Assembly (NCBI GenBank): GCA_008638375.1
Contig: CM018041.1
Coordinates: 1,736,001-1,800,000 of the forward strand
DNA length: 64,000 nt
From: Nyssa sinensis
Taxonomy: Eukaryota > Streptophyta > Magnoliopsida > Cornales > Nyssaceae
Direction of reading: 5' to 3'
In this document: positions 2,031-53,730 of the stretch, in pieces
How the letters are laid out: each line of letters starts with the position of its first letter
How positions within the stretch are numbered: the stretch's first letter is position 1
The notes under the pieces: model-generated
Seen by the model: the letters and a program-made list of their open reading frames with translations, nothing else
What the model was told of the DNA's origin: nothing
The model's database searches: none
Position numbers and translations under genes: made by a program

Positions 2031-2451
2031 TCAGCTACTATAAACTCAAATTAACTATTTAATAATTTTTACATTAAATTTTTATTTATTCTAATTATTT
2101 TATCTTTAAAAATAACTCTTCTCATGTAACTTTGACTTTAGTAATATTATTCATTTCAACTTGGCAAGAGATCAGTCACTAGGTGAATTTCAATTCTACT
2201 ACGTAACAATACTACACCTCAAAAATTCTCAGGCTGTATGTGACTGCATATTTATCTTGTAGGAATTTTTTTATTCATCAGATTCTGTAGTGGATAAAAT
2301 ATGAATTCAAACTATGCATAATTGGAAAGAAAATGATTTTAAAAAATGATATAAAGATTATGAGAGAGAGAGAGAGAGAGAGTTACACCTCATCAATTAG
2401 TCCCATCACGTGACCCGTAACTTGAGAGGGAAGAGAGAGACAGAGACTTAC

Positions 2452-2715
2452 TTGAAGGTAGAGGGATTGGAGGGCCACTCGGGCACATACTGCTCCAAAG
2501 GATAACAATGGAGTCTGAGGTAGTCTCTCCAATTGTGAACCAGCTCCTTCTTCACATTAAAACTAGTGGACAGTCTCATCGTCTTTGATGGGTCATCAGA
2601 GTACAACTTCATCTTCTCTTCTACGGGCAAACTGAAGAAATCCTTTGCCACCTCTAGCATTTTCTCTACTACTTCGGTGCATACGCCATGGTTTATCACC
2701 TGGTCCACACACGCG

Positions 2716-2749
<34 letters not shown>

Positions 2750-3062
2750 ACCATATATTTAGTACTGAAACTTCACCATCATACATATAGTAATCTAACA
2801 TGTGTGTAAATTCATATGCAAATGCATGCAAAGGTAAGAATGATAATGGAATAAAATCAAACACCTGGAAGAAGCCAAATTCCCTACAGGCATCGCCTAT
2901 TTGTTGGGCTATGAGGTCCCTGTCACTGCAACCCAAGTCTATTACGGGAACGTTTTCACAGTCTGCAATCTCAGAGAGTTTTGGTCTTTCGGACTCGGGC
3001 CGGACATAACTTTCCGGTATGCTCGAATAACGGATTCCGGTGGAAATGACCTTTGTATCCAT
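2452..3062 (-). CDS. DMR6-like 2-oxoglutarate/Fe(II) oxygenase, 5' exons only
   Basis: Two exons of a plant 2-oxoglutarate-dependent dioxygenase of the DMR6/DLO clade, known for salicylic-acid hydroxylation and suppression of defence. Exon 1 (3062-2865, start ATG at 3062) carries the N-terminal DIOX_N region and ends in FGFFQ. The intron (2864-2700) starts GT, ends CAG and contains a CA/TA microsatellite. Exon 2 (2699-2452) reads VINHGV, then EEKMKLYSDDP, LSTSFNVKKE and NWRDYLRLHCYP, all close to Arabidopsis DMR6, and ends at a GTAAGT donor after PSNPSTF. Both intron positions are usual for the family. The catalytic half, with the HxD...H iron site and RxS motif, is not visible in the remaining 2.45 kb to the left edge. 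Either intron 2 is long or the gene is truncated. Family call is strong; substrate is inferred. Confidence 0.85.
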
Positions 3063-3949
3063 GATTTCCGGTAACCCAAGGGGGGACAGTGGGAGAAAAG
3101 ACTAGAGTCAATTATAGGGTTTTCAGCTCTTCTAGGATTAAGCTAAGGCTGAGGCAACTTCGAGGAAGGCTATCATATATGTATCCGAATATGTGTTTTG
3201 TCGGGTTGACGTAGTAAACCCAAGTCTTCCACCCACTATTCCTCTGTTACTTGTTACTGTGAAATTGGGGTGTCACACTCGCACCATTGCCATAATGCTA
3301 AAGAACTTAAATATGTTGAGTATTTTGATAAAAGAAAAATAAAAGAAAATTTTTTATTTTTTTATTTTTTCAGTTTCACAATTTTATTATTAACCATTAA
3401 TGCTGTCATCAATCACTACGGTTCATCCGTTAAGTCTTCTATATGTATAAATGATTCTGTTTGAGCTCCTTTCTACCTAAGCTTTCCATGTTTTCTTTCA
3501 ATTTCTATACCTTCATAGAGATTCCTTTATGAATGGGATCAAAGTTATGAAAAGCCACCTATAACAAGATTAGAGTTCACAGTTTCAAGTTCTTGGCTTT
3601 TGCAAACCTTATTGCAAGTGCCATCTCATTATTGGTGGTTTTTCATAATTTTATGGGCAACTTCGAGAAAAACAGTTGTTTAGCTTTCTTATATGGACCT
3701 TAAGGAGGCCTGGCATACGAGGAGTCGAGAATTGTGTTTAATTTTGGAGCCGTTGTAGTCCGCTCACGTACGGGAAGCTCGGCTGTTTTAAGACACTGAT
3801 TTTATTTCTTTATTCGATTCTTATTTTATTTATTGTATTTAATTGTTGAGTTATATCTATTTATTTAAAATAAAAATACATAAATTAAAGAGATTTTTTT
3901 TTCTAACAACTTACATACACAATATATATATATATATATCATCTATCTA

Positions 3950-16000: not shown

Positions 16001-16140
16001 TGGAAGACTTTCTTGAGATAATTTGTTCATAATTCTAGAATTCATCTTAATGAGTTGAGTCAAAGCTGTTAACGTCTCCCCCTCCTTCCCCACCTTCCTG
16101 GAATTTGGTCCTCCCATCTTCAGAACAAAAGCCCTTTACA
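13088..16140. other. gene-free stretch upstream of TTG1
   Basis: AT-rich intergenic DNA with no supported gene. The short open frame near 14277 has no recognisable domain. The last few hundred bases should hold the TTG1 promoter; no single element there can be called with confidence. Confidence 0.5.
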
Positions 16141-16176
16141 AGAAGCATCTCCTCTTTCCAGAATACAGAGGAAAAA

Positions 16177-16185
16177 AAACCCTAA
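16177..16185 (+). promoter_or_regulatory. telo-box-like motif in TTG1 leader
   Basis: AAACCCTAA lies 36 bases before the TTG1 start codon, inside the probable 5' leader. Telo boxes (AAACCCTAA) are known in plant promoters and leaders, where they bind telomere-repeat-binding factors and can recruit Polycomb. A role here is inference. Confidence 0.4.
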
Positions 16186-16220
16186 TTTCTGCTGATTTTC
16201 AAATCCACAGATCTGCCGAT

Positions 16221-17243
16221 ATGGAGAATTCAACCCAAGAATCCCACCTCAGACCCGACAATTCCGTCACATACGACTCCCCCTACTCACTCTACGCCAT
16301 GGCCTTCTCTTCCTCAACCCGAACACCTCACCAACGCATCGCCCTCGGCAGCTTCATCGAAGAGTACAACAACCGCGTTGACGTTGTTTCTTTGGACGAA
16401 GAAACCCTTTCTATCAAGGCCAATCCCAGCCTCTCGTTCGAGCACCCTTATCCTGCCACCAAGCTCATGTTCCACCCCAACCCCGCCGCTTCCCACCGCA
16501 AGTCCTCTGACCTTCTCGCCTCCTCTGGAGACTACCTCCGTCTCTGGGAAGTCCGCGATAACTCCATCGAGCCCCTCTCTGTCCTCAACAACAGCAAAAC
16601 CAGCGAGTTCTGCGCTCCTTTGACTTCCTTCGACTGGAACGAGGTCGACACTCGGAGAATTGGGACGTCCAGCATCGACACGACCTGCACGATTTGGGAT
16701 ATCGAAAGAGGGGTCGTCGAGACGCAGTTGATTGCGCATGATAAGGAAGTCTACGACATTGCTTGGGGAGAAGCTGGGATTTTTGCTTCTGTTTCGGCCG
16801 ATGGATCTGTTAGGATCTTCGATTTGCGAGACAAAGAACACTCCACAATTATATATGAGAGTCCGCAACCGGACACTCCGTTGCTTAGGTTGGCTTGGAA
16901 CAAGCAGGATTTGAGGTACATGGCGACAATTTTGATGGACAGTAATAAGATTGTGATCTTGGATATTCGTTCGCCCACAATGCCAGTCGCAGAGTTGGAG
17001 AGGCATCGGGCCAGCGTGAATGCAATTGCCTGGGCTCCGCAGAGCCCTCGCCATATTTGTTCTGCAGGGGATGATACTCAGGCGCTCATTTGGGATTTGC
17101 CCACGGTTGCGGGTCCTAATGGCATTGACCCTATGTCTATGTACTCAGCTGGGTCTGAAATTAACCAGCTCCAGTGGTCAGCGGCACAGCCTGACTGGAT
17201 TGCAATTGCATTTTCCAACAAAATGCAGCTTCTAAAAGTCTGA
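16221..17243 (+). CDS. TTG1: TRANSPARENT TESTA GLABRA 1, WD40 scaffold protein
   Basis: Intact 340-residue single-exon frame. It matches TTG1 over its whole length, and TTG1 is 341 residues in Arabidopsis. Conserved blocks include [67 protein letters not shown] and [17 protein letters not shown]. About four to five WD40 blades are visible, with WD/FD-type ends near residues 110, 160, 200, 250 and 290. The protein is the scaffold of the MYB-bHLH-WD40 complex, which controls anthocyanins, proanthocyanidins, trichomes, root hairs and seed-coat mucilage. The start is supported by the N-terminal match ([15 protein letters not shown]). Immediately after the stop the sequence reads G|GTATGAG, a good splice donor, so an intron in the 3' UTR is likely. 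Confidence 0.98.
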
Positions 17244-24864: not shown

Positions 24865-25959
24865 GGGCCTAGTAAATCAAGCACATATGTTATTTTATTA
24901 TTATATAAAATTTCTTATTTTTAATTTGGACAAGTGTTCGTCATAATTAACTAGCTAGTGGTGAATGTGTGTTCTTAATAAATAAATAAATTATTGGGTA
25001 TGTTAATGAATGATATTTGAAGAGTTAATATTGTTTATAATACAATTTTGTGTTGAAAATGTATTTTATAAAATTTAGGTTTGATGTTGCATTCGTAATA
25101 AAATATGTTTCATGTTTTGGTTTTTGTTTTTGTTTTTATTTTTAAATAGCTTTGTTGTACCAAACTCTTTTTCTGTTTTTGTTTGTATAGAAACAATAAT
25201 ACTCTTTGTTCTAAATTTCACATCTCAAATGATGTAAATATATTATAATTTTTTTTAATAATCTATTGTAATATTATTTGGGATATAAGTTTTGGTACAA
25301 AAATTTAAAACATCTAGAGTTGATTTTATAAAAAATAAAAGATAAATTAAATTAATTTTTTTTTAATTTTTAAATAATTACACTAACTTCCTAGTGAGTT
25401 TTTAAAATTATACTTATTTAATTAGACTTTCTCCCAACAACAATTGGACTTTAACAAATGTCGGTTGGTTCTCTACTGACTTTTATCCATTCTGGCTCTT
25501 CCTTAACTTGGTTATGGTTGGGTTGCATGTCAAAGATGGACCCGTGTTGGATGTTTTGGGCACCAACCATTTAATAGTGTTGGGCCCACGCATGAATTAG
25601 GTTTCACTAAATATTTTGATGGAAATTGTGAAAATAAATAAATAAGGAAGAGAAGTCGTGTCTATTTTTTTCACAAAGCTAATATTTACAACGTATTAAA
25701 TTTTATAAAAATTATACAAATTTATAAAATAATATTTTTATACTTACTAGTAGATTCAAGAGGGACTAAGGAGATCATGGCTTCCTAATTTTTTTTTTTT
25801 ATAAATTTTCATTTGAATTTGCTTAAATTTTAATACATGGAACTTTGCTGTCGATGCTGTACTAACTTATGTACTTTATATATATATGTGTGTGTGTGTT
25901 TTTGTGATATTCTTCTCTCCTTCCGTACCTTCTCTCTGTCTTCAATCAACCTCCTCTCA

Positions 25960-26505
25960 ATGGTGTTTCCTTGTTTTAGTATTACCATTCACAAACTTGT
26001 ACTAAGCTTTTGCAGCTTTATATTATCCCTCGTGGAAGACATTTTCATGGTCGTCCTAAACTCTTGCATCCCTCTACCCAACACAGCATATCTGTCTGAA
26101 GAAGAAGATACCGATGATTGCGCAGTAGAATATCGGCCATCTCCTTCGTTGGTACCAGTACCTGTCCATTTCATAGTCGAATCGATCCAGGAGCGACTCC
26201 CAGTAATTCCATATATTTGCATGCTTCAAAGTTTGGGAACAGGTAAATTAAATTCAGATTGTGCTGTGTGCTTGAAGAGCTTGAAGGCAAATGATGAGGT
26301 TAGAGAGCTTCAAAATTGTACTCATGCATTTCACAAAGAGTGTCTTGATGCTTGGATTAAACAAGGCCAGATAACTTGCCCTTTGTGTAGATCTAAAGTT
26401 GTGTTGCCTGATCAAGGAGAAAAATTGAAGTGTGGAGAAGATCCCTGGAGGATAGAGAGAGTGATTTATTTGTTTGGTGAGGATTATGTTATGGGTACCT
26501 CTTGA
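25960..26505 (+). CDS. RING-H2 zinc finger protein, copy A (intact)
   Basis: 181-residue protein, probably a RING-H2 E3 ubiquitin ligase of the small BRH1/RHA1-like kind. I start it at the ATG at 25960 because the paralogue at 38404 begins at the same place (MGFPCF versus MVFPCF); the 41 codons upstream are low-complexity. The first ~45 residues are hydrophobic and could anchor to membrane. Next come an acidic linker (EEEDTDDC) and the shared motif RPSPSLVPVPVHFI. The RING-H2 finger reads CAVC, then CTHAFHKEC, then CPLC, with all eight zinc ligands present. The C-terminus PWRIERVIYLFGEDYVM is shared with copy D. It belongs to a local cluster of two intact and three broken copies. Substrate unknown. 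Confidence 0.88.
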   Translation: MVFPCFSITIHKLVLSFCSFILSLVEDIFMVVLNSCIPLPNTAYLSEEEDTDDCAVEYRPSPSLVPVPVHFIVESIQERLPVIPYICMLQSLGTGKLNSDCAVCLKSLKANDEVRELQNCTHAFHKECLDAWIKQGQITCPLCRSKVVLPDQGEKLKCGEDPWRIERVIYLFGEDYVMGTS

Positions 26506-29179: not shown

Positions 29180-29706
29180 TGTAGAACAAGTGACAGAGAC
29201 TTTTGAAGCACAATAAAAACGTTTCAAGACTCGTTCTAAAAAAAAGTATTAGTAAGCATAGAGTTTGTCTTTTAGGAACGGAGACCCTATTTTGACTCAA
29301 AACGACGAGACGGACAATACTCATAACTTTGCCATGACCCAACAACTTCGTTTGGGCCTTCAATTTCACTTTTTTTTTTTCATTTATAGTAATTTTATTT
29401 TGCACAATTACTTTGTTTAGGAAAATCCAAATTAACTTTTACTTGTGGTTATAATTTCCTACTATCATAAGATTTTTAGTTTTCTAAAAAGCCCAAATTT
29501 TTATTAATTTCAATTTTTTTCCCCTTTTTACAATTATTATAGGTTTCTAATTGTAATAGGATTAATATAAGGAATTAAAAAATTTCTATTCAGATTACTA
29601 GTAGTCTTAACCTATATAAATTATGTAAGTTAGTCTTTATTTTTCAGATAATCAATATTATATTTCTATTTAAAAATTTAAGGTTTGTTCTTTTTATATA
29701 AGAAGT
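29180..29706. repeat. LTR-like repeat between broken RING halves, copy 1
   Basis: Diverged but collinear with 43650-44130. Both contain ACAAGT...AACGTTT/AAACTGTTTTAAG, a TTTAGG(C)CTTC-like stretch, TATAGTAATTTT, GTTTA.GAAAAT, and TTCTTAACCTATA.AAAT near the right end. In both places it lies immediately 5' of a C-terminal RING fragment. The layout resembles a solo LTR, but its exact ends and target duplication could not be fixed. Confidence 0.5.
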
Positions 29707-29717
29707 CCCGTGTGTTA

Positions 29718-30125
29718 GTCGTCTTAAGCTTTTGCATCCCTCTACCCAACACGGCATATCAATATGAAGAAGAAGAAGATACAGATGACTGTGCAGTAGA
29801 ATATCGGCCATCTCCTTCGTTGGTACCAGTCCCTGTCCATTTCATATTCGAATCGATCAAGGAGAAACTCCCAGTAATTCAATATAATTGCATGCTTAAA
29901 TGTTTAGGAACAGGCAAAGTAAATTCCATTTGTGCCGTATGCTTGAAGGCAAATGATGAGGTTAGAGAGCTTCAAAATTGTACTCATTCATTTCATGGAG
30001 AGTCTCTTGATGCTTGGATTAAACAAGGCCAGTTAACTTGCCCTTTGTGTAGATCTAAAGTTGTGTTGCCTGATCAAGCAGAAAATTTGAAGTGTGGAGG
30101 AGATCCCTGGAGGAGAGAAGAGTGA
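29718..30125 (+). pseudogene. RING-H2 copy C, C-terminal fragment with lesions
   Basis: Very similar to intact copy A from CIPLPNTAY onward (EYRPSPSLVPVPVHFI, RELQNCTHSFH, CPLCRSKVVLPDQ), but with three defects. It lacks the first ~45 codons. A 9-base deletion removes KSL between the first and second zinc-ligand pairs. The RING ligand Cys in HKEC is Ser (HGES). A 1-base deletion near 30115 shifts the frame, so it ends PWRREE instead of PWRIERVIYLFGEDY. Similarity to copy A continues past the stop to about 30330. Copies B and C together look like a chimera of two different paralogues joined at the repeat. Confidence 0.85.
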
Positions 30126-30380: not shown

Positions 30381-30566
30381 AACAGTGTGCTCTTCGAACA
30401 ACATTTGTCATATTTAGTATATCTCATTAAAAAAATTGAATCAAATTATACGTTATATAATATTATTAAAATAACAATGTGCTTTTCGAATAACACTTTG
30501 TCATATTTAGTATATCTCATTAAAAAAATTGAATCAAATTATACATTATACAATATTATTAAAAAA
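30381..30566. repeat. two-copy tandem duplication, ~92-bp unit
   Basis: Units 30381-30472 and 30473-30566 share AACA.TGTGCT.TTCGAA, TCATATTTAGTATATCTC and TTGAATCAAATTATAC with few differences. Non-coding. Confidence 0.85.
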
Positions 30567-30648: not shown

Positions 30649-31375
30649 TGATACGCCAAAAAATACCCCACCACTATGGGGACGACACGAGTACTGAGCA
30701 TCCAGAGCTCGTTAGAGCTTGCGCCTCAAGAGGTGGCAAAGACATGCCTCCAGAGGTGGCAGAGATGTACCTCTAGAGCTGAGCCAGAATCTCCATCCAG
30801 AGCTCACCAGAGCCAACGCCTCTAGAGGTGGCAAAGACATGCCTCCAGAGGTGGCAAAGACGTGCCTCCAGAGACGGCAGAGCCAAGCCCCCAGAGGTAG
30901 GCCTCCAGAGGTAAGCCTTCAGAGGTGTGTACTACAGACCTCGTAGTAAGAAGGAGTTCCGAACTGGTCATCGCCTATCATAAACTTCCGACCTCGAAAC
31001 AAGGAAGCATGACGCAATATGGAAACTGTCACCGTCTGACAAACAGTGAACTTTAGCCCTGCTTTGCAGGGCTTTTAGCCTTGCAAAGCGGCACAACAAG
31101 TGGAAAATGACGTAGATGGACATCATGAAATGCCCACCGCTTGATGACAGCTAATGAAAGAGTTCATCAGCTTATAAATATCACCTTCAAGGTACGCATA
31201 AGATATAGATATTCTTTTACATAGAATTATCTTCCATAAAAACTCTGACCATGGACTAACTTCCTCATCGGAGTGGCTACCGCCGGAGCCATCCCGACGG
31301 CCCTCTAACTCTCTTTTTTCAGAGTTTATAGTGACGAGGAACGGATCTCCGGCAAGTCAGAAAAATGCAGCATCA
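30649..31375 (+). repeat. 5' LTR (727 bp)
   Basis: Begins TGATACGCCAAAAAATACCC and ends AATGCAGCATCA. It contains CCTCCAGAGGTGGCAAAGAC minisatellite units (one more than the 3' LTR) and a TATAAATA box at 31173-31180, likely part of the promoter. It also carries an extra hairpin-like CCCTGCTTTGCAGGG segment near 31060 that the 3' LTR lacks. Confidence 0.93.
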
Positions 31376-31378
31376 GCT

Positions 31379-31396
31379 TGGCGCCGTCTGTGGGAA
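31379..31396 (+). other. primer-binding site
   Basis: TGGCGCCGTCTGTGGGAA lies three bases inside the left LTR boundary. TGGCGCCGT is complementary to the 3' end of plant tRNA-Asp, used by many Ty3/gypsy-type elements; the tRNA assignment is inferred. Confidence 0.8.
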
Positions 31397-31769
31397 ACGA
31401 CAGTCAAATCTGCTTCGTTTCCTAAATTTTTCTCTATATTACTTGATGATGATTATTTAAGTTCTTTCAAATTCATTCTAACCCGTGAATATTATTGCAG
31501 AGAAATCCCATAGTGTTTTCTTCTGCAGGGTTCTACACCTGAATCGAGATCAAACTCTCTCTCTCTCACACTAAAAATTCGATAGATCTCCATATTGGCT
31601 TTCTCTAAAATATCTATACGATATATCTCTCTCTCTAAAAAACATAACATAAAAACCCTCTTGTTATTTTTCTTTTCTCCAGAGACGTTGCCCCAACTGT
31701 GCAATTGAATCAAAATTAATGCCTTGCAGTGCTAGATCTTGAGCTGCTAATCGAAAAATAACGACAATT

Positions 31770-31951
31770 ATAGGGCGTTGCTGTTTTACAGGTGGCTCGC
31801 CGATCTGTTCCCTCAATCGATGCTGGGCGTCGTGGAGAATGAGCCGAGGGAGGATGGGAACGGCATGCTTATGCTCATCAATTTATCAAAGCTAAACCCT
31901 TTGTATTTGGATATGAATAGGATTCATCCCTGTTTCCATCCTGAAGGCAAG
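31770..31951 (+). pseudogene. captured XRN 5'-3' exoribonuclease fragment
   Basis: After an apparent decayed MGV start, the frame reads [26 protein letters not shown] and [15 protein letters not shown]. These are the N-terminal signature of XRN2/3/4-type exoribonucleases ([34 protein letters not shown]). The catalytic acidic residues of XRN lie further on and are absent. The piece corresponds to the first exon region of a plant XRN gene; the sequence after GK is unrelated. Confidence 0.88.
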
Positions 31952-31975
31952 GAAAAGACTGGCAAATAATGAAAT

Positions 31976-32340
31976 CTGACCAACTTGAGATTCGCTTCTC
32001 TCGGACGGTCCTATCAAAAGGGGTTTCATTCTACAAATCTCTAGAAGCCCTGGACAATGGAGTTTTGCTAATTCATCTGGCCATTGCCTTATTTGCGCTT
32101 GAAGCAATTGAAAGTAGCAGTCAGAGAATCGGCTGGATCTATGCTGTTTCTCTCTTTTGCTCGACATCCCGTGATGTACAAATTGGGTGTTTCATATGCA
32201 CGCAATCCAGCTCCTCGAGAAGCTGATTTTGATCTGAGAAACATCCAAGAAACTTACAAATTCTTGCAGTCTCTCTCATATATCTTACCGTCGCAAATGA
32301 CGGCACGATCACGATCCCTCTCTTTGGTCCTCTTCTGAGT
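31976..32340 (+). pseudogene. probable captured host sequence, unidentified
   Basis: A stretch with coding-like composition between the XRN and L39 pieces. One frame reads LKQLKVAVRESAGSMLFLSF and then FDLRNIQETYKFLQSLSYIL; an overlapping frame is also open. I do not recognise a family. Its place among identified gene fragments suggests another captured exon or exons. Confidence 0.35.
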
Positions 32341-32397
32341 GCCATGGATTTTGGTGCAACGCTGTTTTGGTTCTATTCGTACTGTACCTGGCTTTTT

Positions 32398-32530
32398 ATG
32401 CCAAGAAGAACCTCAAGAAGAAACTGGCCCAGAAGGTGAAATAGAACTGCCTTGTCCCCATTGGATCCGTGTGAGGACCAGCAACCCCAACGAACAAAAA
32501 TAAAAATTCGGGGACCAGGACACATGTTGG
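32398..32530 (+). pseudogene. captured ribosomal protein L39 (eL39) copy
   Basis: From ATG at 32398 the sequence follows RPL39: MP, then LKKKLAQKV (family IKKKLAKKM), then PHWIRVRTSNP (family PHWIRMRTDNT), then a diverged tail ending RTHVGL (family RRTKLGF). It has a deletion near the start, an in-frame TAG at 32442 and a 1-base deletion near 32460. Because eL39 is only 51 residues, the fragment spans nearly the whole coding sequence. It is non-functional. Confidence 0.72.
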
Positions 32531-32656
32531 GCTAGCCGTATGCTTCTCTACTCCAAAGTGAAAAACTGGCCTTTGGGTCTTGCTACTCTGAGATTTTTGT
32601 TCAATCTCTGCTTTGTTTATATAGAGACCTATATTTCTCATTCTTATAGACCGTTA

Positions 32657-32965
32657 ATGGATCCTCAACCAGAACCAGTGAGTTACGTATGTGAAGCTTG
32701 CGGTGACTTTTATGGTGCAGGTCCGTACAGATCCGTAAAAGGGCTTAGCACGAGACCTGCGGCTAGTTCCGATGAAATCCAATCACGGATTGATCTGATG
32801 CATACGGACTTGGCTGAAGAATTTATTAAGATTGAATACATATTCGAACAATGGCAGGCGAGGAGAAACACAATAAATCTTTTGCAAGAACAGCCACCTA
32901 GCCAATTTTCAAGCTGTTGTAGAAGGCATGAGCTCTGCACAGAGATCCAAGCTGATAGTCACTAG
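32657..32965 (+). CDS. chimeric frame: RPB12 start fused to Bet1-like SNARE
   Basis: An open frame from ATG at 32657 encodes about 102 residues. It begins MDPQPEPVSYVCEACG, the N-terminus of plant RNA polymerase subunit RPB12/RPABC4 (MDPQPEP.SYVCGDCG). It continues in frame with GAGPYRSVKGLSTRPAASSD and IQSRIDLMHTDL, which resembles the N-terminal part of plant Bet1-like Qc-SNAREs (YRSREGLSTR..SSEEIQLRIDPMH.DL). The tail is unrecognised. Neither the RPB12 zinc ribbon nor the SNARE/transmembrane part is complete. The frame is also open upstream to 32540. Whether it is expressed is unknown; it may simply be a captured fusion. Confidence 0.6.
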   Translation: MDPQPEPVSYVCEACGDFYGAGPYRSVKGLSTRPAASSDEIQSRIDLMHTDLAEEFIKIEYIFEQWQARRNTINLLQEQPPSQFSSCCRRHELCTEIQADSH

Positions 32966-33775
32966 CTTGTGAATACATAAAGTTCAGATAGTAGATCCCT
33001 GGAGTAGTATTACTATTGAGGGAGAGATTCCCATGGTACCAGGAAGGCATGATAACAAAACTTGATTTCAGATCAGAACTTCATCTCTATAGATCTCAAG
33101 AAGCTCAGTCACGAGCTAGTTTTAATCATGCAGAAAACCAGCCGTTATGATAAAACGCATCATCTGCCTCCATCCAACAACGATATAAAGTTCATCACTA
33201 AATGCCTCTTCAACACCACAGAACAGACTTTGAAAGAGACCTTGCTTGCGGTCACAGGGTGTTGAGAAGCTTCTTAGATGATAAAGAAATTGTGATGAAG
33301 GCTGAACTGTTCCAGCAAGTTCTCTACACTTCGGCTCTGGCAAGTATACTGCACACTTCAGAACTGGCTCTCCAAACACTGGCTCCTCCAGAGCTCATCA
33401 AGAGCTCCTCCAGAGCTAGCTCCTCAAGCATTAGCTAACATCGCCTCGAGGGCACGATGGAGTTGTGTAGATAGAGATAATGAATTGTGATTGTATACCT
33501 CCAAATCTTTTTCTTAAAGAAAAAGTAATTACCAGTGGTTTTTTCTATAACCAGTGAACTCTCGGAAGATGGCTGCAGATTTCTCTGAGTGGCAGTCCCT
33601 GCTATAGGCCATCATCGCAGTCACTGCTACCATCCTCATCGTGGGGACATCTTCCACAGAATGAATCTAAACTCTTGTAGTGATTCCCATCTTGAGAGAT
33701 TGCTACTGCAGTATCTCAATTTGCAAAGCTGTTCTGTTACATTACTACTCATGAGCCTCAAAAACTGACATACAG
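32966..33775 (+). other. unidentified internal segment of the LTR element
   Basis: Contains several short open frames (33062-33265 and 33202-33438) and a short ATG frame at 33568 (MAADFSEWQSLL, then stop) followed by a hydrophobic stretch. No family is recognised. CCAGAGCT-type repeats related to those in the LTR occur at 33340-33430. Confidence 0.4.
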
Positions 33776-33940
33776 TATTATCTAGCAATTCCAGTGTTTA
33801 TTGTTGGACCGATCAAGTTTTTGGAGAGGAGTTGGTTTCACTAGAAGGCAAGCATGGATCAATTTCGAAAGTCTGTGCTCCGTGGTCTTGACCCCGGACC
33901 TAATTATTCCAAATTCATGGATGAGTACAGTTCGAAATAG
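33776..33940 (+). pseudogene. captured DUF4220-family fragment
   Basis: The frame reads YYLAIPVFIVGPIKFLERSW, an in-frame TAG, then KASMDQFRKSVLR and DPGPNYSKFMDEYSSK, stop. This matches the plant DUF4220/DUF594 membrane-protein signature (IxGIIKYGERTW..ASLD.FR.SML, then DPGPNYAKFMEEY). Only this short piece is present, with one nonsense codon. Confidence 0.72.
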
Positions 33941-34090
33941 CTGACCCATCCAGATCTGGCACGTCAAGAGCTGAACCCGTCCAGCGCTGATACCTCTGAC
34001 CCATCCAGAGCTGGTACCTCAAGAGCTGACCCCTCCAGAGTTGGTTTAAAAAAAAAATAGCTGACCCCTCCAGACGAAAATGACCTATAC
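33941..34090. repeat. CCAGAGCT(GG)-type minisatellite inside the element
   Basis: Repeats of GCTGACCC.TCCAGAG and CCAGAGCTGGTACCTCAAGA. The same CCAGAGCT / CCTCCAGAG words recur in both LTRs, linking this block to the LTR-derived repeat. Confidence 0.6.
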
Positions 34091-34924
34091 AGGTATCTAT
34101 CTATTATTGAAGATGAAAGCTTTTGAAATATCACAGCCTGCACTTGATCCCATTAAATCAGGGGTGCATCATCAAATTACTGTACGTAGGAGGCAATCAA
34201 GAGTGCACAAAGCTTATCTACTCTGTTAAGAGATCAGCAGTGCTTCCATATAGATCGGTGCTTGCGCAGTTTGGTGCTTTTATAAATTCTATGTGGAGCA
34301 ACACATCTTACAAACTTATGGACCTTTGGCACGCGTTCAAGAGTGTTGTGGCAGTAGTCATGACTACTGCACAGGTTTTCACTGCTGTGGTGTCATGTGC
34401 AAAGGCTGTTATGCTAATTCATGTTTCCTGATCTATTGAGTATTAAAACTAGGGATGAAGTTGATCCGTTGTGTGGTTTTGTGCCGCTTGTTAATAACGG
34501 TGGGTGTGTACAAAAAAAAAAAAAAAAAAATCACGGTATATATTTTGGTAAGGGAGACAATTATGGATACAAAATGGTGGTTGCACTATCAAGAACGAGC
34601 AAATAACACTTCCGTTTTTTGCTGTTCACGCATATGGTGGTGTTGGGTATATTGAACACAGTTGGAATGTGCGTGGACCATGCTTGTGCTTGTGGCTTTA
34701 TAGAAAAGAAAAAGAGAGAAAACAAATATAAGGACGGGGCGGTCAGTGCTGCTGCTACGTGCTGACATTATTGGGACGTATAGTATATTTTGCGCGAAGA
34801 AGAGTCTAACAAAAGTGATTGTCTTCTCTGCTTCTACGTACACATCGTCAGCTTTGAAATTTATACCAATAGAGTTCATTAGCATTGCTTGCATGCTGAC
34901 AAAAAAAAAAAAGGAGTTTTGGAA

Positions 34925-35050
34925 TTATTGCAGATTAATGGCTGCTATAGTATGGTCTCTTTGCCAGAGGATGGGATTGGAAGATTGAGCTCCCTTCAGA
35001 ATTTGGTCGTTGAGCGCTGTCATAATATCATTTCTTTATCAAGAGGGATT
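34925..35050 (+). pseudogene. captured leucine-rich repeat (NLR-type) fragment
   Basis: After a possible splice acceptor (TTATTGCAG at 34925-34933) the frame reads LLQINGCYSMVSLPEDGIGR, then LSSLQNLVVERCHNIISLS. The spacing of L..L.I..C..L.SLP and SLQ.L.V..C matches LRR units of CC-NBS-LRR disease-resistance proteins. Only about two repeats are present, with no NB-ARC domain. Confidence 0.6.
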
Positions 35051-35099
35051 TCTATCTATCAGCAGATCTTGTTTTTCATCGATTGGGAGTCAGATGTTA

Positions 35100-35560
35100 G
35101 TTAAATCCCAATCAGGTGTATCAAAGTGGCGTACGGAGTGGCTACTTTGATCTAGGTGATGCTAACAGTGTCTGCTTGTAGCATTGTCTTGCCACTTCTG
35201 AAGATTATCTCAAATGGGTATATAATTCTCTAGAAGGATATATTCACCTGTCAATGGCCCAGTGGGTTCATAAGAATGATGATTATTTTGACTTCCTCAC
35301 ACCGGATATCAGAAATGCTTCTTTGCTTCAAGGGTCATGTTAATCTGTCCTTTATCCAAACATGGAGGATGCTGCGAAAGGAAATTATCGTTCTTGATAA
35401 GGGAAAGAGTCAGCTTCTGAAAGCAACTGAACTGCAGTCCAGTGATGAGCTTTCGGCCGTTGAGAATTTCAACAAGATCTACATTATTGATGATGGTGAA
35501 TTTGGTGATGTTGTCACAGGTTTCCGCTATTCTGTACCCAAATAGGGAGTTCTGAGACTC
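35100..35560 (+). pseudogene. probable captured host sequence, unidentified
   Basis: Coding-like stretch in shifting frames. One frame reads EDYLKWVYNSLEGYIHLSMA and NDDYFDFLTPDIRNASLL; another, after 35380, reads LDKGKSQLLKATELQSSDEL then IYIIDDGEFGDVV. I do not recognise the family. The frame changes suggest a decayed captured gene. Confidence 0.35.
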
Positions 35561-35683
35561 CTAAAAAACTAGTCTAGATGCCAGAATGTTTCTGTGTGTT
35601 GAAATATCTAACCTGCTATATATGGTGATTGGTAAAAGACTACAATCACAGGTCTGTAGACCTGGTCCATCTCGAATGACCCT

Positions 35684-35970
35684 TACAAGCATAAGTGCTG
35701 TAGGTATGGTCCCAAGTCAAAAGGCCCCTACAAGCATAAGTGCTGTAGGTATGGTCCCAATTCAAAAGGCCCCTACCAGCCTAAGTGTTGTAGGTATGGT
35801 CCCAATTCAAAAGGCCCCTACCAGCATAAGTGCTGTAGGTATGGTCCCAATAAAAAATGCCCCTCCAAGCCAAGTATTGTAGGCATGGTCTCAATTCATT
35901 GTACAGGTCTCCAAACCTGGTACATTTAACAAAGGCTCCTACAAGCCAAAAGTTGTAGGTATGATCTCAA
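35684..35970 (+). repeat. 45-bp Cys-rich minisatellite
   Basis: Four clean 45-bp units (35684-35728, 35729-35773, 35774-35818, 35819-35863) are followed by decayed units to about 35970. The unit length is a multiple of three and two frames are open through the clean units. One frame gives repeated YKHKCCRYGPNSKGP, the other TSISAVGMVPIQKAP. It lies just before the polypurine tract of the LTR element. Confidence 0.88.
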
Positions 35971-36126
35971 AATTTAATGCACAGACCCACGGGTCTGGTC
36001 CATTTTTCTCACTCTACTGACATTGTTTCATTATGCAAGTATTGTAGGTCGGTATCTTATGAAATCACCAAATACGCGTGACCCTTCAGAAATTCTAACC
36101 TCATTTCTACATGGATCCCACAAAAC

Positions 36127-36147
36127 TGAGGCTCGGGGGGGAGTAGC
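36127..36147 (+). other. polypurine tract
   Basis: GAGGCTCGGGGGGGAG directly precedes the 3' LTR, the normal position for the plus-strand primer of an LTR retrotransposon. Confidence 0.8.
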
Positions 36148-36817
36148 TGATACGCTAAAAAATACCCCACCACTATGGGGACGACACGTGTACTGAGCAT
36201 CCAGAGCTCGTTAGAGCTTGCGCCTCAAGAGGTGGCAAAGACATGCCTCCAAAGGTGGCAGAGATGTACCTCTAGAGCTGAGCCAGAATCTCTATCCAGA
36301 GCTCACCAGAGCCAGCGCCTCCAGAGGTGGCAAAGACGTGCCTCCAGAGACGGCAGAGCCAAGCCTCCAGAGGTAAGCCTTCAGAGGTGTGTACTACAGA
36401 CCTCGTAGTAAGAAGGGGTTCCGAACTGGTCACCGCCTATCATAGACTTCCGACCTCGAAACAAGGAAGCATGACGCAATATGGAAACTGTCACCGTTTG
36501 ACAAACAGTGAACTTTAGCCCTGCAAAGCGGCACAACAAGTGAAAAAAATGACGTAGATGGACATCATGAAATGCCCACCGCTTGATGACAGCTAATGAA
36601 AGAGTTCATCAGCTTACAAATATCACCTTCAAGGTACGCATAAGATATAGATATTCTTTTACATAGAATTATCTTCCATAAAAACTCTGACCATGGACTA
36701 ACTTCCTCATCGGAGTGGCTACCGCCGGAGCCATCCCGGCGGTCCTCTAACTCTCTTTTTTCAGAGTTCATAGTGACGAGGAACGGATCTCCGGCAAGTC
36801 AAAAAAATGCAGCATCA
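36148..36817 (+). repeat. 3' LTR (670 bp)
   Basis: Begins TGATACGCTAAAAAATACCC and ends ATGCAGCATCA, followed by the target duplication GTTCT. It is shorter than the 5' LTR by one ~23-bp minisatellite unit, a ~14-bp segment and a ~22-bp segment. The TATA box of the 5' copy is TACAAATA here. Confidence 0.93.
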
Positions 36818-36822
36818 GTTCT

Positions 36823-38280
36823 GATCACAGACAAGAAATGGATAGGCATGCATATACTTGCGTCTAGCTTCCCAAAGCCCAATCTATCCATTTTTTACAG
36901 CCCTAGTTAGAACAGAAAGAGATATGTGCTAAGGTTCTGCAACAATGAATGAAATCTCACGGATGTTCATAAAGGCATTGTAGGTACAAGGCAGAGCCAG
37001 AATTTTTTTTTTGGAGAGGACTAGAATTTCTTTTAGAAAAAAATTATGCAAAGTTTTTTTTTTCTCAAAATTAGAAGTAAAATTCACAGACACACGCATG
37101 TGTTTATACGTGTGTGTGTGTATATATATTGCGAAATTTATCTCGCCCATTCATGTACCTAGTTTGGCAATGAGGTGACATGAGTATGAAAAACAACTTA
37201 ATTATGGAGTAGATGAGTTGGCTGATGTGACCCGCTAATATTTCAAGTTAAATTTTCCTAATCTACCCGTATAGTTAAAAGGTAATTGCTTTCAATAAGA
37301 AAAAGTAATTTTTTGAGCTGCCAGACACAGACTGTGATGATTTTTATAATTTTAATTTTATGGTGATTCAACACGAATTTAGTAAAATATTAAAATTATA
37401 AAAATATCATGTCATGTCACGAATTTATAAAATACTCTTTTAGTCGAAAGTATATTTTTAATACAACATATCACGATTTAAATATTGACATATATAAATG
37501 GTAATTTAATCCGTTTTGTTAAAAATTTGTCAATTCAGTTTTAATGGAACGGATTTGAAAAAAAAAATTCTTCCGCATTAAAACTTAGAACAGGTTTGGA
37601 GAAAAGACATTCCGTCTCGTTTCGATTATATAAAATAAAATGATAAAAAAATTTTATGTTACATAATTAATGTTTATAATAATATTTTTTAGTCAATCAT
37701 TAAAAATTTATACAAATTTAATAGAGTTGTATGTTTGAAAAAAAAATAATGTTATTTTAATTCTCTATTAACATATATATATATATATATATTTCTTATT
37801 TTAACACATAATATTTTGTTAAAAAATATTAATTTAATAAAATAAATAAATAACTAAAATTTTAAAATAAATAGAAAGCCGCCTCCTTTTTATCATAAGT
37901 TTTCGCAGGCGGAGTTGGGGCCGTTGCCATCCCTATTGACTATTTTCTTTTCGTGGTTTTTTATCTTTGATTTCAAGGAGAGCACAAGAGCAGATTTGTT
38001 AACTAATTAAATAGGGTGGTTTGTAACTGCATTTAAATCACAACTAAATAGAAAGCTAATTAATTCAGAATCAGAATTTTCTTAGTATGCTTTTCTTTCA
38101 ATTTTTTTTTTAATGTAAACCTAAAATATAGAAGGGTGAAGTTTGAATGAGTCTACATATAGAATGAAGATATCATTTTATATGCATAACCCTCCTTAAG
38201 TCGCCTTAAGTCGCTGGTGGGCCTTCATCATTTTGACTGCCTGAAAATGACAACTTGATATCACTCCGTCAGACCTTTTC
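36823..38280. other. AT-rich intergenic and promoter region of copy D
   Basis: No gene. The right part (about 38035-38290) matches the region upstream of broken copy B and represents the uninterrupted, empty-site form of that promoter. Confidence 0.6.
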
Positions 38281-38403
38281 ACTAGACTTTTGTTCCCTGC
38301 CGTGGACTATATACATAGATACACACATGAGTTGCAGCTCCAACGCACAGAACTACACTCTTCTCTCCATTTCTCTCTCCTGCTAACTTCGGCTTCAATT
38401 TTC

Positions 38404-38955
38404 ATGGGTTTCCCTTGTTTTACCATTACTATTTCAAAGCTCCTACCATTAACCCTACAAACCGTTCTATCAGACCTTCAAAAAGCCATTCTGATGGTGT
38501 TACACTCTCGTCTCTTCCTACTGATCAGCAAAACATATTCATTTCATGAACAGAAAACCCATGATATCTCACCGGAATATCACCCTTCTCCTTCTCTGGT
38601 TCCAATCCCTGTCAATTTTATAAACGAATCGATCAAAGAACGGCTTCGAGTAATCGAATACAGTTGCTTTCTGGAGAAGTCGTCGCGGGCGCGTAAACAA
38701 GATGAGCAACGCTGTGCGGTGTGCTTGAATTGCATGCAGGCAAGCAATGAGGTGAGAGAGCTTCGCAATTGTTGTCATGTGTTTCACAGAGACTGCCTTG
38801 ATGCATGGATTGATAAGGGTCATGTAACTTGCCCTCTCTGTAGATCTAAGCTATTTCATGATCAAGGAGGAGAGGAGTTAAGCCGCGGAGGAGATCCATG
38901 GAGAGTGGAGAGGATGGTTTATTTGTTTGGCGAGGATTATGTGATGAGTGCTTGA
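38404..38955 (+). CDS. RING-H2 zinc finger protein, copy D (intact)
   Basis: 183-residue RING-H2 protein, probably an E3 ubiquitin ligase, paralogue of copy A. It starts at MGFPCFTITISKLL (38404), shared with broken copy B; the upstream in-frame codons are leader-like CTCTCT-rich sequence. The hydrophobic N-terminus is followed by SKTYSFHEQKTHDI, then YHPSPSLVPIPVNFI. The RING-H2 finger reads CAVC, then CCHVFHRDC, then CPLC, with a complete set of zinc ligands. It ends PWRVERMVYLFGEDYVMSA. The leader and N-terminus differ from copy A, so the cluster has at least two subtypes. Regulation and targets unknown. Confidence 0.9.
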   Translation: MGFPCFTITISKLLPLTLQTVLSDLQKAILMVLHSRLFLLISKTYSFHEQKTHDISPEYHPSPSLVPIPVNFINESIKERLRVIEYSCFLEKSSRARKQDEQRCAVCLNCMQASNEVRELRNCCHVFHRDCLDAWIDKGHVTCPLCRSKLFHDQGGEELSRGGDPWRVERMVYLFGEDYVMSA

Positions 38956-53096: not shown

Positions 53097-53730
53097 TCAA
53101 ACTGAAGTAGAACACTCTGTCCCTTGTTTGGAACTCAATGGACCAGATGGGATGCTTGGTCCGAAAGGCATAACAGCAATACAATTAACATTAATTCTGT
53201 ACCTTCCGGAAACCCAAGTCCCCACCTTCCATCGAAGCCTTCCGTTCACTTTCAGACTCAAAACCAGTTTTCCGGCCGTCTGGTCACGTCCCACTTCATA
53301 ACCAAAAGACGGGGCCACTGGTAGGCCAGCTCCGACCAAGGAGGCCGTTAGAAGATTGCTATCTTCATGACCTTGATAAAAAGGAGGAAGAGGAGTATAA
53401 ACTGTTATCTGCTGACCCTTGTAAGAGGCATAAGTTTGGAGCTCGTCGTAGTATATGCCAACCTTCTTATTTGGGTTCTTGGAGAGTAAAGTTAGTTGGA
53501 TGGAGGAGTTGAGAAGGTGAGGACCTGAGAGGTTGAGTTGGTAGATATCGGCTTCTTTGAGGGAGAAGTCAGGCTTGGTGGGATGTAGGATAAGCCAAAC
53601 AAGGAGGATGAGTGATAGAATTGAGAGGAGAAAGGTAGAGAAGGTGTAGAATAGCTTCTTGTAAAGCTTGTCAATAGTTCAATCCTTGCTTGGCGCAGTG
53701 TTTGGGAGATCTTGTGAGGGCTTGAGACAT
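53097..53730 (-). pseudogene. NDR1/HIN1-like (NHL, LEA_2) gene with one-base frameshift
   Basis: Single-exon gene for an NHL membrane protein of about 210 residues. It starts at ATG 53730 (MSQALTRSPKHCAKQGLN). After one extra base at about 53676 the frame resumes DKLYKKLFYTFSTFLL, followed by a transmembrane stretch LSILSLILLVWLIL. The NHL signature NPNKKVGIYYDEL is present, then YQGHEDSNLL and a LEA_2 domain ending WVSGRYRINVNCIAV and a short C-tail. The family acts at the plasma membrane in defence and stress. As written, translation would stop after about 19 codons, and no later ATG gives the domain. Either a true null allele or an assembly error; apart from this base the frame is clean. 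Confidence 0.87.

Follow-up and report, generated by a model that had tools for sequence, protein, structure and literature searches.

How can a retrotransposon that lacks genes of its own come to hold parts of many unrelated host genes? The question is raised by a 6.2-kb element with long terminal repeats (LTRs) in Nyssa sinensis, which occupies positions 30649-36817 of the 64,000-nt stretch of DNA analysed here (the window; C19:1736001-1800000). Its interior of about 4.8 kb is a chain of short pieces, 11 of whose sources can be named while three more are without a name. The likely answer is that these pieces were captured stepwise at the RNA level, through template switching by reverse transcriptase (RT), and reshuffled among the members of an LTR family, with splicing of the element RNA as a likely second route.

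The element is structurally complete. Both LTRs have the form TGATAC...GCATCA and GTTCT stands on either side of the element, which confirms exactly the borders given in the original prediction, made from the sequence alone (LTRs of 727 and 670 bp, TG...CA ends, a GTTCT duplication). Over 668 aligned columns the two LTRs show 15 substitutions (Kimura two-parameter distance, K2P, 0.0229), with gaps of 23, 14, 22 and 2 nt, and at the rate of 1.3e-8 as used in PMC5664825 the insertion would be about 0.9 million years old. As judged by eye, a sequence resembling a primer-binding site (PBS), TGGCGCCGTCTGTGGGAA, begins 3 nt past the 5' LTR, and a G-run resembling a polypurine tract (PPT), CGGGGGGGAG, lies immediately 5' of the 3' LTR. 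The Pfam scan covered 40 of the 110 listed open reading frames (ORFs; at least 35 aa; element and edges). No gag, protease, RT, RNase H or integrase was found in these 40 ORFs, which rules out an intact gag-pol there, as had been claimed, and three host families passed the Pfam cut-off, namely XRN_N, ETR1_N and DUF707. In the ORFs scanned, the element shows none of the gag-pol coding of an autonomous LTR retrotransposon. Rfam gave no match at gathering scores.

The nameable sources encode XRN, Tmemb_40, RPL39, RPB12, a Bet1-like SNARE, MA3, DUF4220, DUF707, an ethylene receptor (ETR), an NLR-type leucine-rich repeat (LRR) protein and a choline-transporter-like protein. Source or source-like loci for them are present in the same genome (1.00 Gb, 211 contigs), as found by searching the interior against it and aligning the pieces to the loci. 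For seven of the 11 (XRN, Tmemb_40, RPL39, MA3, DUF4220, DUF707 and ETR), a curated Pfam match was obtained with the piece itself, with its source locus or with a relative of the element. All six fragments originally named (XRN, RPL39, RPB12, Bet1-like, DUF4220 and NLR LRR) were traced, the parent genes expected in this genome were found as source or source-like loci, and "at least six" sources proved to be an understatement. The common orientation proposed for the cargo holds for most pieces, but 33427-33558 is seemingly antisense, and in 34518-34912 one half runs opposite to the source. The pieces and their best source loci share between 76-78% (XRN, Tmemb_40) and 95% (DUF4220) identity, a spread in keeping with stepwise capture.

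The passage of the cargo through RNA is indicated by the missing introns. Seven parental introns were testable, in that they fall inside a captured span and the structure of the source is known, and all seven are absent, two from the window element and five from relatives, as the original prediction would have it. In the window element these are a 206-nt intron of RPB12 and a 251-nt intron of the Bet1-like gene, both GT..AG; only six bases of RPB12 exon 2 remain there, and relatives that hold far more of this exon lack the intron as well. Two relatives on C18 have further choline-transporter-like exons without the introns of 321 and about 530 nt, and a DUF3675 piece in the relative E1 lacks three introns (768, 94 and 500 nt). 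These absences argue against copying of genomic DNA by a Helitron or a Pack-MULE.

Some of the joints between pieces carry microhomology. Eight joints for which both templates were available were assessed, with lengths taken by eye from alignments except at the DUF4220 joint. The Tmemb_40/RPL39 joint has 9 nt of microhomology, ATCAAGAAG, and the same joint is found in all three relatives examined (E1, E2 and E3); the 3' joint of DUF4220 to an LTR-like repeat has 10 nt, AGTTCAAAAA, as judged against the source gene and the unbroken repeat of E1. The other joints have 5 nt (Bet1/next piece), 3 nt (RPB12-Bet1 and XRN left), 2 nt (XRN right and DUF707/ETR) and 1 nt (RPB12/Bet1 5' untranslated region (UTR), in relatives only). 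Among random joints between eight source loci, matches of at least 9 nt occur in 8.5e-5 and of at least 5 nt in 0.7%.

The element is one of a family in this genome. The LTR and leader searches each scored 40 candidates, and the copy counts are lower bounds: the LTR search gave at least 61 matching stretches (40 of 1,301 candidates) at no fewer than 29 separate places, and further leader and LTR matches add 11 places, bringing the total to at least 40. The expectation of further copies with the same LTRs was thus borne out, with cargo that differs yet overlaps and whose order varies among relatives. Seven LTR pairs were dated, that of the window included (K2P 0.0040-0.0374), and five of these seven members have exact 5-bp target-site duplications (TSDs) of their own (Table 1), marking independent relatives. 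The leader, one short block and the 3' repeats are widely shared in the family, while the remainder is variable. Among 132 scanned ORFs, of 257 selected non-backbone ORFs in the examined parts of relatives, 13 Pfam families of host type were matched at E<=0.001, not all of them above Pfam's own cut-offs: RPL39, glycosyl hydrolase 1, DUF3730, three LRR families, DUF707, DUF3675, ETR1_N, protein kinase, ribosomal S13 N-terminal, glycosyl transferase 4 and DUF4220. Some of these matches could be to flanking genes, since certain borders are estimates. No family of gag, RT or integrase type was found in the same 132 ORFs.

Comparison with eight relatives, with identities calculated without gaps, reveals a mosaic whose nearest relative switches along its length. 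E2 is nearest for the leader (97.3%), the backbone block (95.7%), Tmemb_40 (96.4%), RPL39 (95.2%) and, by a narrow margin, the 5' LTR (93.7%). E1 and E2 tie for XRN (94.8 and 94.5%), and E1 is nearest for 34081-35560 (96-98%). The member at C3:26.36 Mb is nearest for DUF4220 (95.7%) and the 3' repeats (96.1%), and that at C3:7.48 Mb for the 3' LTR (94.8%). The shared parts were probably reshuffled within the family and not collected by the window copy alone. Taken together, the absent introns, the microhomologies of 9-10 nt and the mosaic support repeated capture at the RNA level.

Template switching by itself is insufficient for all features, and several observations weigh against it as the main route. 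Five of the eight joints have no more than 3 nt, a length that chance could give; the 10-nt DUF4220 microhomology contains an A run, and around the Tmemb_40/RPL39 joint the sequence is rich in AAGAAG and offers competing 9-nt matches. The best loci for XRN and Tmemb_40, at only 76-78%, could be paralogues rather than the actual parents. Moreover, XRN exon 1 ends at a donor (GGCAAG/GTATGA), and the backbone joined there follows ..CTCTCTCTAAAAATAG elsewhere; the DUF707 exon likewise ends at CACAG/GTTAGT, with ETR joined directly past ..TTTTTCCATCCCACTAG of the source-like gene. These two joints look like splice products, an exact exon end followed by post-AG sequence, and splicing would account for them at least as well as template switching. 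It is thus possible, although we hold it doubtful, that splicing drove the process, genomic or pre-mRNA pieces having entered with their introns and the element transcript having been spliced to downstream acceptors before reverse transcription. Consistent with this, RPL39 in E3 stops no more than 1 nt from its exon-2 end, longer ETR pieces extending beyond that AG occur in the C18b and C17:5.96 Mb relatives, and two C18 relatives have a GTAATAAG..AGCAG stretch where the window element is unbroken. No member with the DUF707 intron and the longer ETR was found among the stretches examined, however, and two exact exon ends in nine pieces of known source might partly be luck, both joints sharing AG. 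The joints with 9-10 nt of microhomology fall within exons, and that of RPB12 to Bet1 in the window is not GT-AG. A spliced intron of about 100 nt at the latter was considered and rejected: relatives have more RPB12 exon 2 and Bet1 5' UTR there, a stretch that the window element lost at a GCG match.

Another mechanism is at work in E1, where 677 bp with a DUF3675 frame (E 8.6e-30; C10:33227809-33228485, L032) break the Tmemb_40 piece in antisense. This piece is a spliced cDNA between two copies of the 13-bp ATCCAAGAAACTT, a sequence that E2, the source locus of Tmemb_40 and the window element each have once and unbroken. Its arrangement indicates a separate, target-duplicating insertion, presumably of the kind made by retroposition of long interspersed nuclear elements (LINEs); no clear poly(A) is present. 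Portions of the DUF3675 and Tmemb_40 block are inverted in six other members, and antisense and inverted pieces would not be expected from simple minus-strand switching. It might accordingly be asked whether each fragment entered separately at the DNA level, by LINE retroposition, a Helitron, a Pack-MULE or repair filler DNA, and the origin of 34518-34912 from a foldback-type repeat also speaks for such entry. This seems improbable for the cargo as a whole: besides the intron evidence against Helitrons and Pack-MULEs, direct repeats around the 16 tested pieces of the window element do not exceed what chance would give. At most there is a poly-A run of 9 nt (reached in 1% of random placements), the next repeat being 7 nt (6.6%), so that single transposon insertions were rejected for the window's pieces; later insertions with duplications of their own, which would have spoken against the original prediction, were not seen there. 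That the cargo is a chimeric gene maintained by selection is hardly credible, and nothing pointing to a selected chimeric protein was found, although no test aimed at selection was made. The longest interior ORF (32504-32965, 153 aa) does span RPB12, the Bet1-like piece and the next one, but one interior frame has 54 stops, E3 and the C17:5.96 Mb relative have ATA in place of the RPB12 start codon, and the cargo order is not constant in the family.

Of the capture by repeated template switching that was originally proposed, the RNA level therefore stands, while the splice-like joints and the E1 insertion need other routes. Under the preferred reading of stepwise RNA-level capture, a non-autonomous, Ty3/gypsy-like LTR family of Retand/Tat appearance would use the proteins of another element as a helper, and its RNA would be packaged together with host mRNAs and the RNAs of sister elements. 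RT would then switch templates, sometimes at short matches, sewing fragments of spliced mRNAs into the new copy, and blocks would be swapped between sister elements during reverse transcription. Splicing of the element RNA between rounds would probably trim pieces and yield some of the exon-exact joints. With new copies integrating with 5-bp duplications, cargo would build up and be reshuffled across many rounds. A more far-reaching idea, which we regard as unlikely, is that of a dedicated gene-capturing lineage ("Pack-LTR") in which the TCCAGAGCTGG-type repeats between cargo pieces and the 3' array serve as landing sites for switching; if true, the family would be a natural exon-shuffling machine that constantly recombines, splices and replenishes fragments of the host transcriptome.

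Table 1. Features of the element (window positions) and dated members of its family.
Feature	Position	Strand	Matches and remarks
5' LTR	30649-31375	+	727 bp; internal repeats of 23-bp type
PBS-like site and leader, backbone common to the LTR family	31376-31641	+	
XRN 5'-3' exoribonuclease, 5' UTR and exon 1	31642-31951	+	Pfam XRN_N E 2.6e-6; PDB XRN2
Backbone block, also in family members without XRN	31952-32172	+	
Tmemb_40 (transmembrane-40) fragment	32230-32423	+	source-like L064 (C14) 78%; homologues
RPL39 fragment	32415-32492	+	curated family in relatives; source genes found
RPB12 exon 1 and first six bases of exon 2	32569-32702	+	
Bet1-like SNARE fragment	32700-32830	+	source gene C16:14343855-14344233
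490-bp piece, source without a name	32817-33306	+	also C3:52375665-52376179 (90%)
LTR-like short repeats (CCAGAGCT..) between cargo pieces	33307-33426	+	repeat families D7, D9
Two segments of C1:64377791-64378811 locus	33427-33558	-	88-89%
Piece matching C13:6780312, C7, C19	33564-33668	+	90% (C13)
MA3-domain gene fragment	33662-33728	+	source locus L074 (C4), 88%
DUF4220 gene fragment	33769-33937	+	95% to C1:895819
LTR-like tandem repeats between cargo pieces	33938-34073	+	
DUF707 exon	34093-34210	+	Pfam 1.4e-8; source loci C11, C17
Ethylene receptor (ETR1/ERS-type) fragment	34211-34455	+	Pfam ETR1_N 7.9e-9; source-like L059 89%
Foldback-type repeat from C9:17.07 Mb	34518-34912	.	
NLR-type LRR fragment	34913-35047	+	C11:37838317 92%; C2:22461308 91%
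Exon fragment of presumed choline-transporter-like gene	35048-35361	+	source-like L057 (C10) 86%
Pieces without a name	35362-35560	+	
Family 3' region	35561-36147	+	45-bp tandem repeats (array at 35680-35898, near the 3' LTR); PPT-like G-run
3' LTR	36148-36817	+	670 bp; TSD GTTCT outside both LTRs
Window element	30649-36817		K2P 0.0229; TSD GTTCT
E1	C10:33.22 Mb		K2P 0.0040; TSD AATAA
E2	C15:31.23 Mb		K2P 0.0287; TSD TTAGT
E3	C4:2.35 Mb		K2P 0.0117; TSD TGAAG
Relative	C3:7.48 Mb		K2P 0.0374; GTTAC only if LTR end moved two bases
Relative	C9:5.62 Mb		K2P 0.0043; no exact duplication
Relative	C5:46.26 Mb		K2P 0.0099; TSD ATATT

The pieces were named from several kinds of evidence. That of XRN sits between two backbone blocks and stops at the exon-1 donor of its source-like genes (L065 and L066, 76-78% identity). 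The piece at 32.2-32.4 kb had been considered for DUF4220, which was rejected: it belongs to Tmemb_40, with a Pfam match of 1.7e-22 on L064, and DUF4220 lies further downstream. Pfam gave no match on the window's own RPL39 piece, and RPB12 was named from a weak PDB match (E 0.055) and the exact exon structure of the source gene. The SNARE piece, joined immediately behind RPB12, was identified through the homologue P0025, annotated as a t-SNARE, which we take to be Bet1-like. The segments at 33427-33558 are antisense to the longest ORFs of their C1 source locus, the coding strand of which is not proven. For the sources at C1:64.38 Mb and C13:6.78 Mb, no Pfam family exceeded the cut-off; they may be HUA2-like and NO VEIN-like. 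Assignment of the MA3 piece to an F-box/LRR gene was rejected after a Pfam scan of its source locus, L074, gave MA3 (9e-9) on the same ORF. The parental exon end of DUF707, CACAG/GT, reads CACAA in the window and CACAG in relatives; 34074-34092 may be the preceding exon, and the ETR piece begins directly past an AG of the source-like gene. In the foldback-type repeat the second half is inverted relative to its source (C9:17068426-17070030, L076), which suggests a strand switch. The LRR matches in Pfam have E 0.016 in the window and 8.9e-6 in a relative, slightly below Pfam's cut-off. The choline-transporter-like name is our own assumption, and a PDB search with this exon gave no hit. Between the pieces of 35362-35560, two C18 relatives have additional sequence starting with GTAATAAG. 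In these relatives (C18:2026940-2027730, L055; C18:8819083-8819775, L048) the extra sequence has splice-like ends, ..CTTCTTAG/ATGGAGG and CTTTCGG/GTAATAAG, the first without GT on the donor side, at points (35361 and 35456) where the window element runs on without a break.

Two other loci of the family have particular surroundings. At C7:44836170-44847008 (L009, L010, L011), three LTRs of similar score stand about 5.0 kb apart, apparently two tandem members with a common middle LTR, like the complex elements described in PMC1950507. A gene with a ZF-HD dimerisation domain (E 2.1e-53; L060:2701-3363, C13:11968211-11968873) directly follows another member and is probably flanking sequence, not cargo. 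In the window, a 93-bp tandem duplication (93% match; 30381-30564) directly precedes the 5' LTR. The element is located between the second and third of three successive RING-H2 finger reading frames on the plus strand (25834-26505, 29682-30125 and 38251-38955), about 0.5 kb past the second. Ordinary host genes elsewhere in the window encode a WD40 protein (16059-17243), an LEA_2-type protein (53097-53678, minus strand) and a dioxygenase, of which the N-terminal exon was found (2448-3101, minus strand).

Among known systems, the nearest named case is Bs1 of maize, also an LTR element with several unrelated host gene segments. As in Bs1, host gene segments lie within intact LTR borders, their sources are elsewhere and the source introns are missing. 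Bs1 keeps part of gag, and no gag was found in the ORFs scanned here. Pack-MULEs, gene-carrying Helitrons and CACTAs are likewise transposon families with gene-fragment cargo, but they are DNA transposons without LTRs and usually keep introns; the element, with its LTR borders and absent introns, does not fit such DNA-level capture. In a large retrotransposon derivative (LARD), a large non-coding interior is conserved within the family, whereas here the interior varies beyond the leader, one short block and the 3' repeats. Terminal-repeat retrotransposons in miniature (TRIMs) are very small, unlike this element of 6.2 kb. Chimeric copies of Veju and BARE-1/BARE-2 in Triticeae are ascribed to abnormal template switching in the accounts of PMC13317346 and PMC1950507, but they fuse a retroelement to another or to DNA of unknown origin, not to many host mRNAs. 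The element shares with Retand/Tat the tandem repeats near the 3' LTR, a common, not universal trait (about half of the published elements as described in PMC11963269), and the LTR size range (315-1,194 bp, ibid.); it differs from these autonomous elements in that no pol was found in the ORFs scanned and host cargo makes up the interior. By its description in a table of PMC11963269 (15 copies, 627-bp LTRs, two tandem arrays), the Retand cluster "Nyssa sinensis 1" is a candidate helper.

Gene capture by LTR elements is described elsewhere on a smaller scale. In rice, elements hold roughly a single gene each (1,343 proteins in 1,318 elements in section 6 of PMC3726574, the abstract of which differs in putting captured genes at 672 in rice and 1,343 in sorghum), some single elements have two or three genes among six genomes including pepper, tomato, potato and rice (PMC5664825), and Bs1 has segments of three unrelated host genes (PMC13317346). 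In pepper, retroduplicated NLRs are reported mostly from LTR elements without gag/pol (PMC5664825). The retroduplicated genes of pepper, tomato, potato and rice are, as here, spliced mRNA inside LTR elements, but here many short fragments form a chain, with about 11 nameable sources in 4.8 kb and a family of varying cargo, in which the element also differs from Bs1. Searches of open-licence PMC papers, covered mainly through titles and the beginnings of abstracts, turned up no LTR element with four or more captured genes.

The N. sinensis elements are thus a non-autonomous, gene-transducing LTR family of the Bs1 kind, new in how many sources it draws on, in reshuffling across the family and in a probable combination of switching and splicing. 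While the parts of the mechanism are individually known already, the record of capture is of interest for its scale and its readability: the element and its dated relatives make mRNA capture by LTR elements readable joint by joint, as switch or splice, in its order and in any effect that cargo RNA may have on the source genes. The family is an LTR counterpart to Pack-MULEs and gene-carrying Helitrons, and may be a natural workshop for the shuffling of gene parts.

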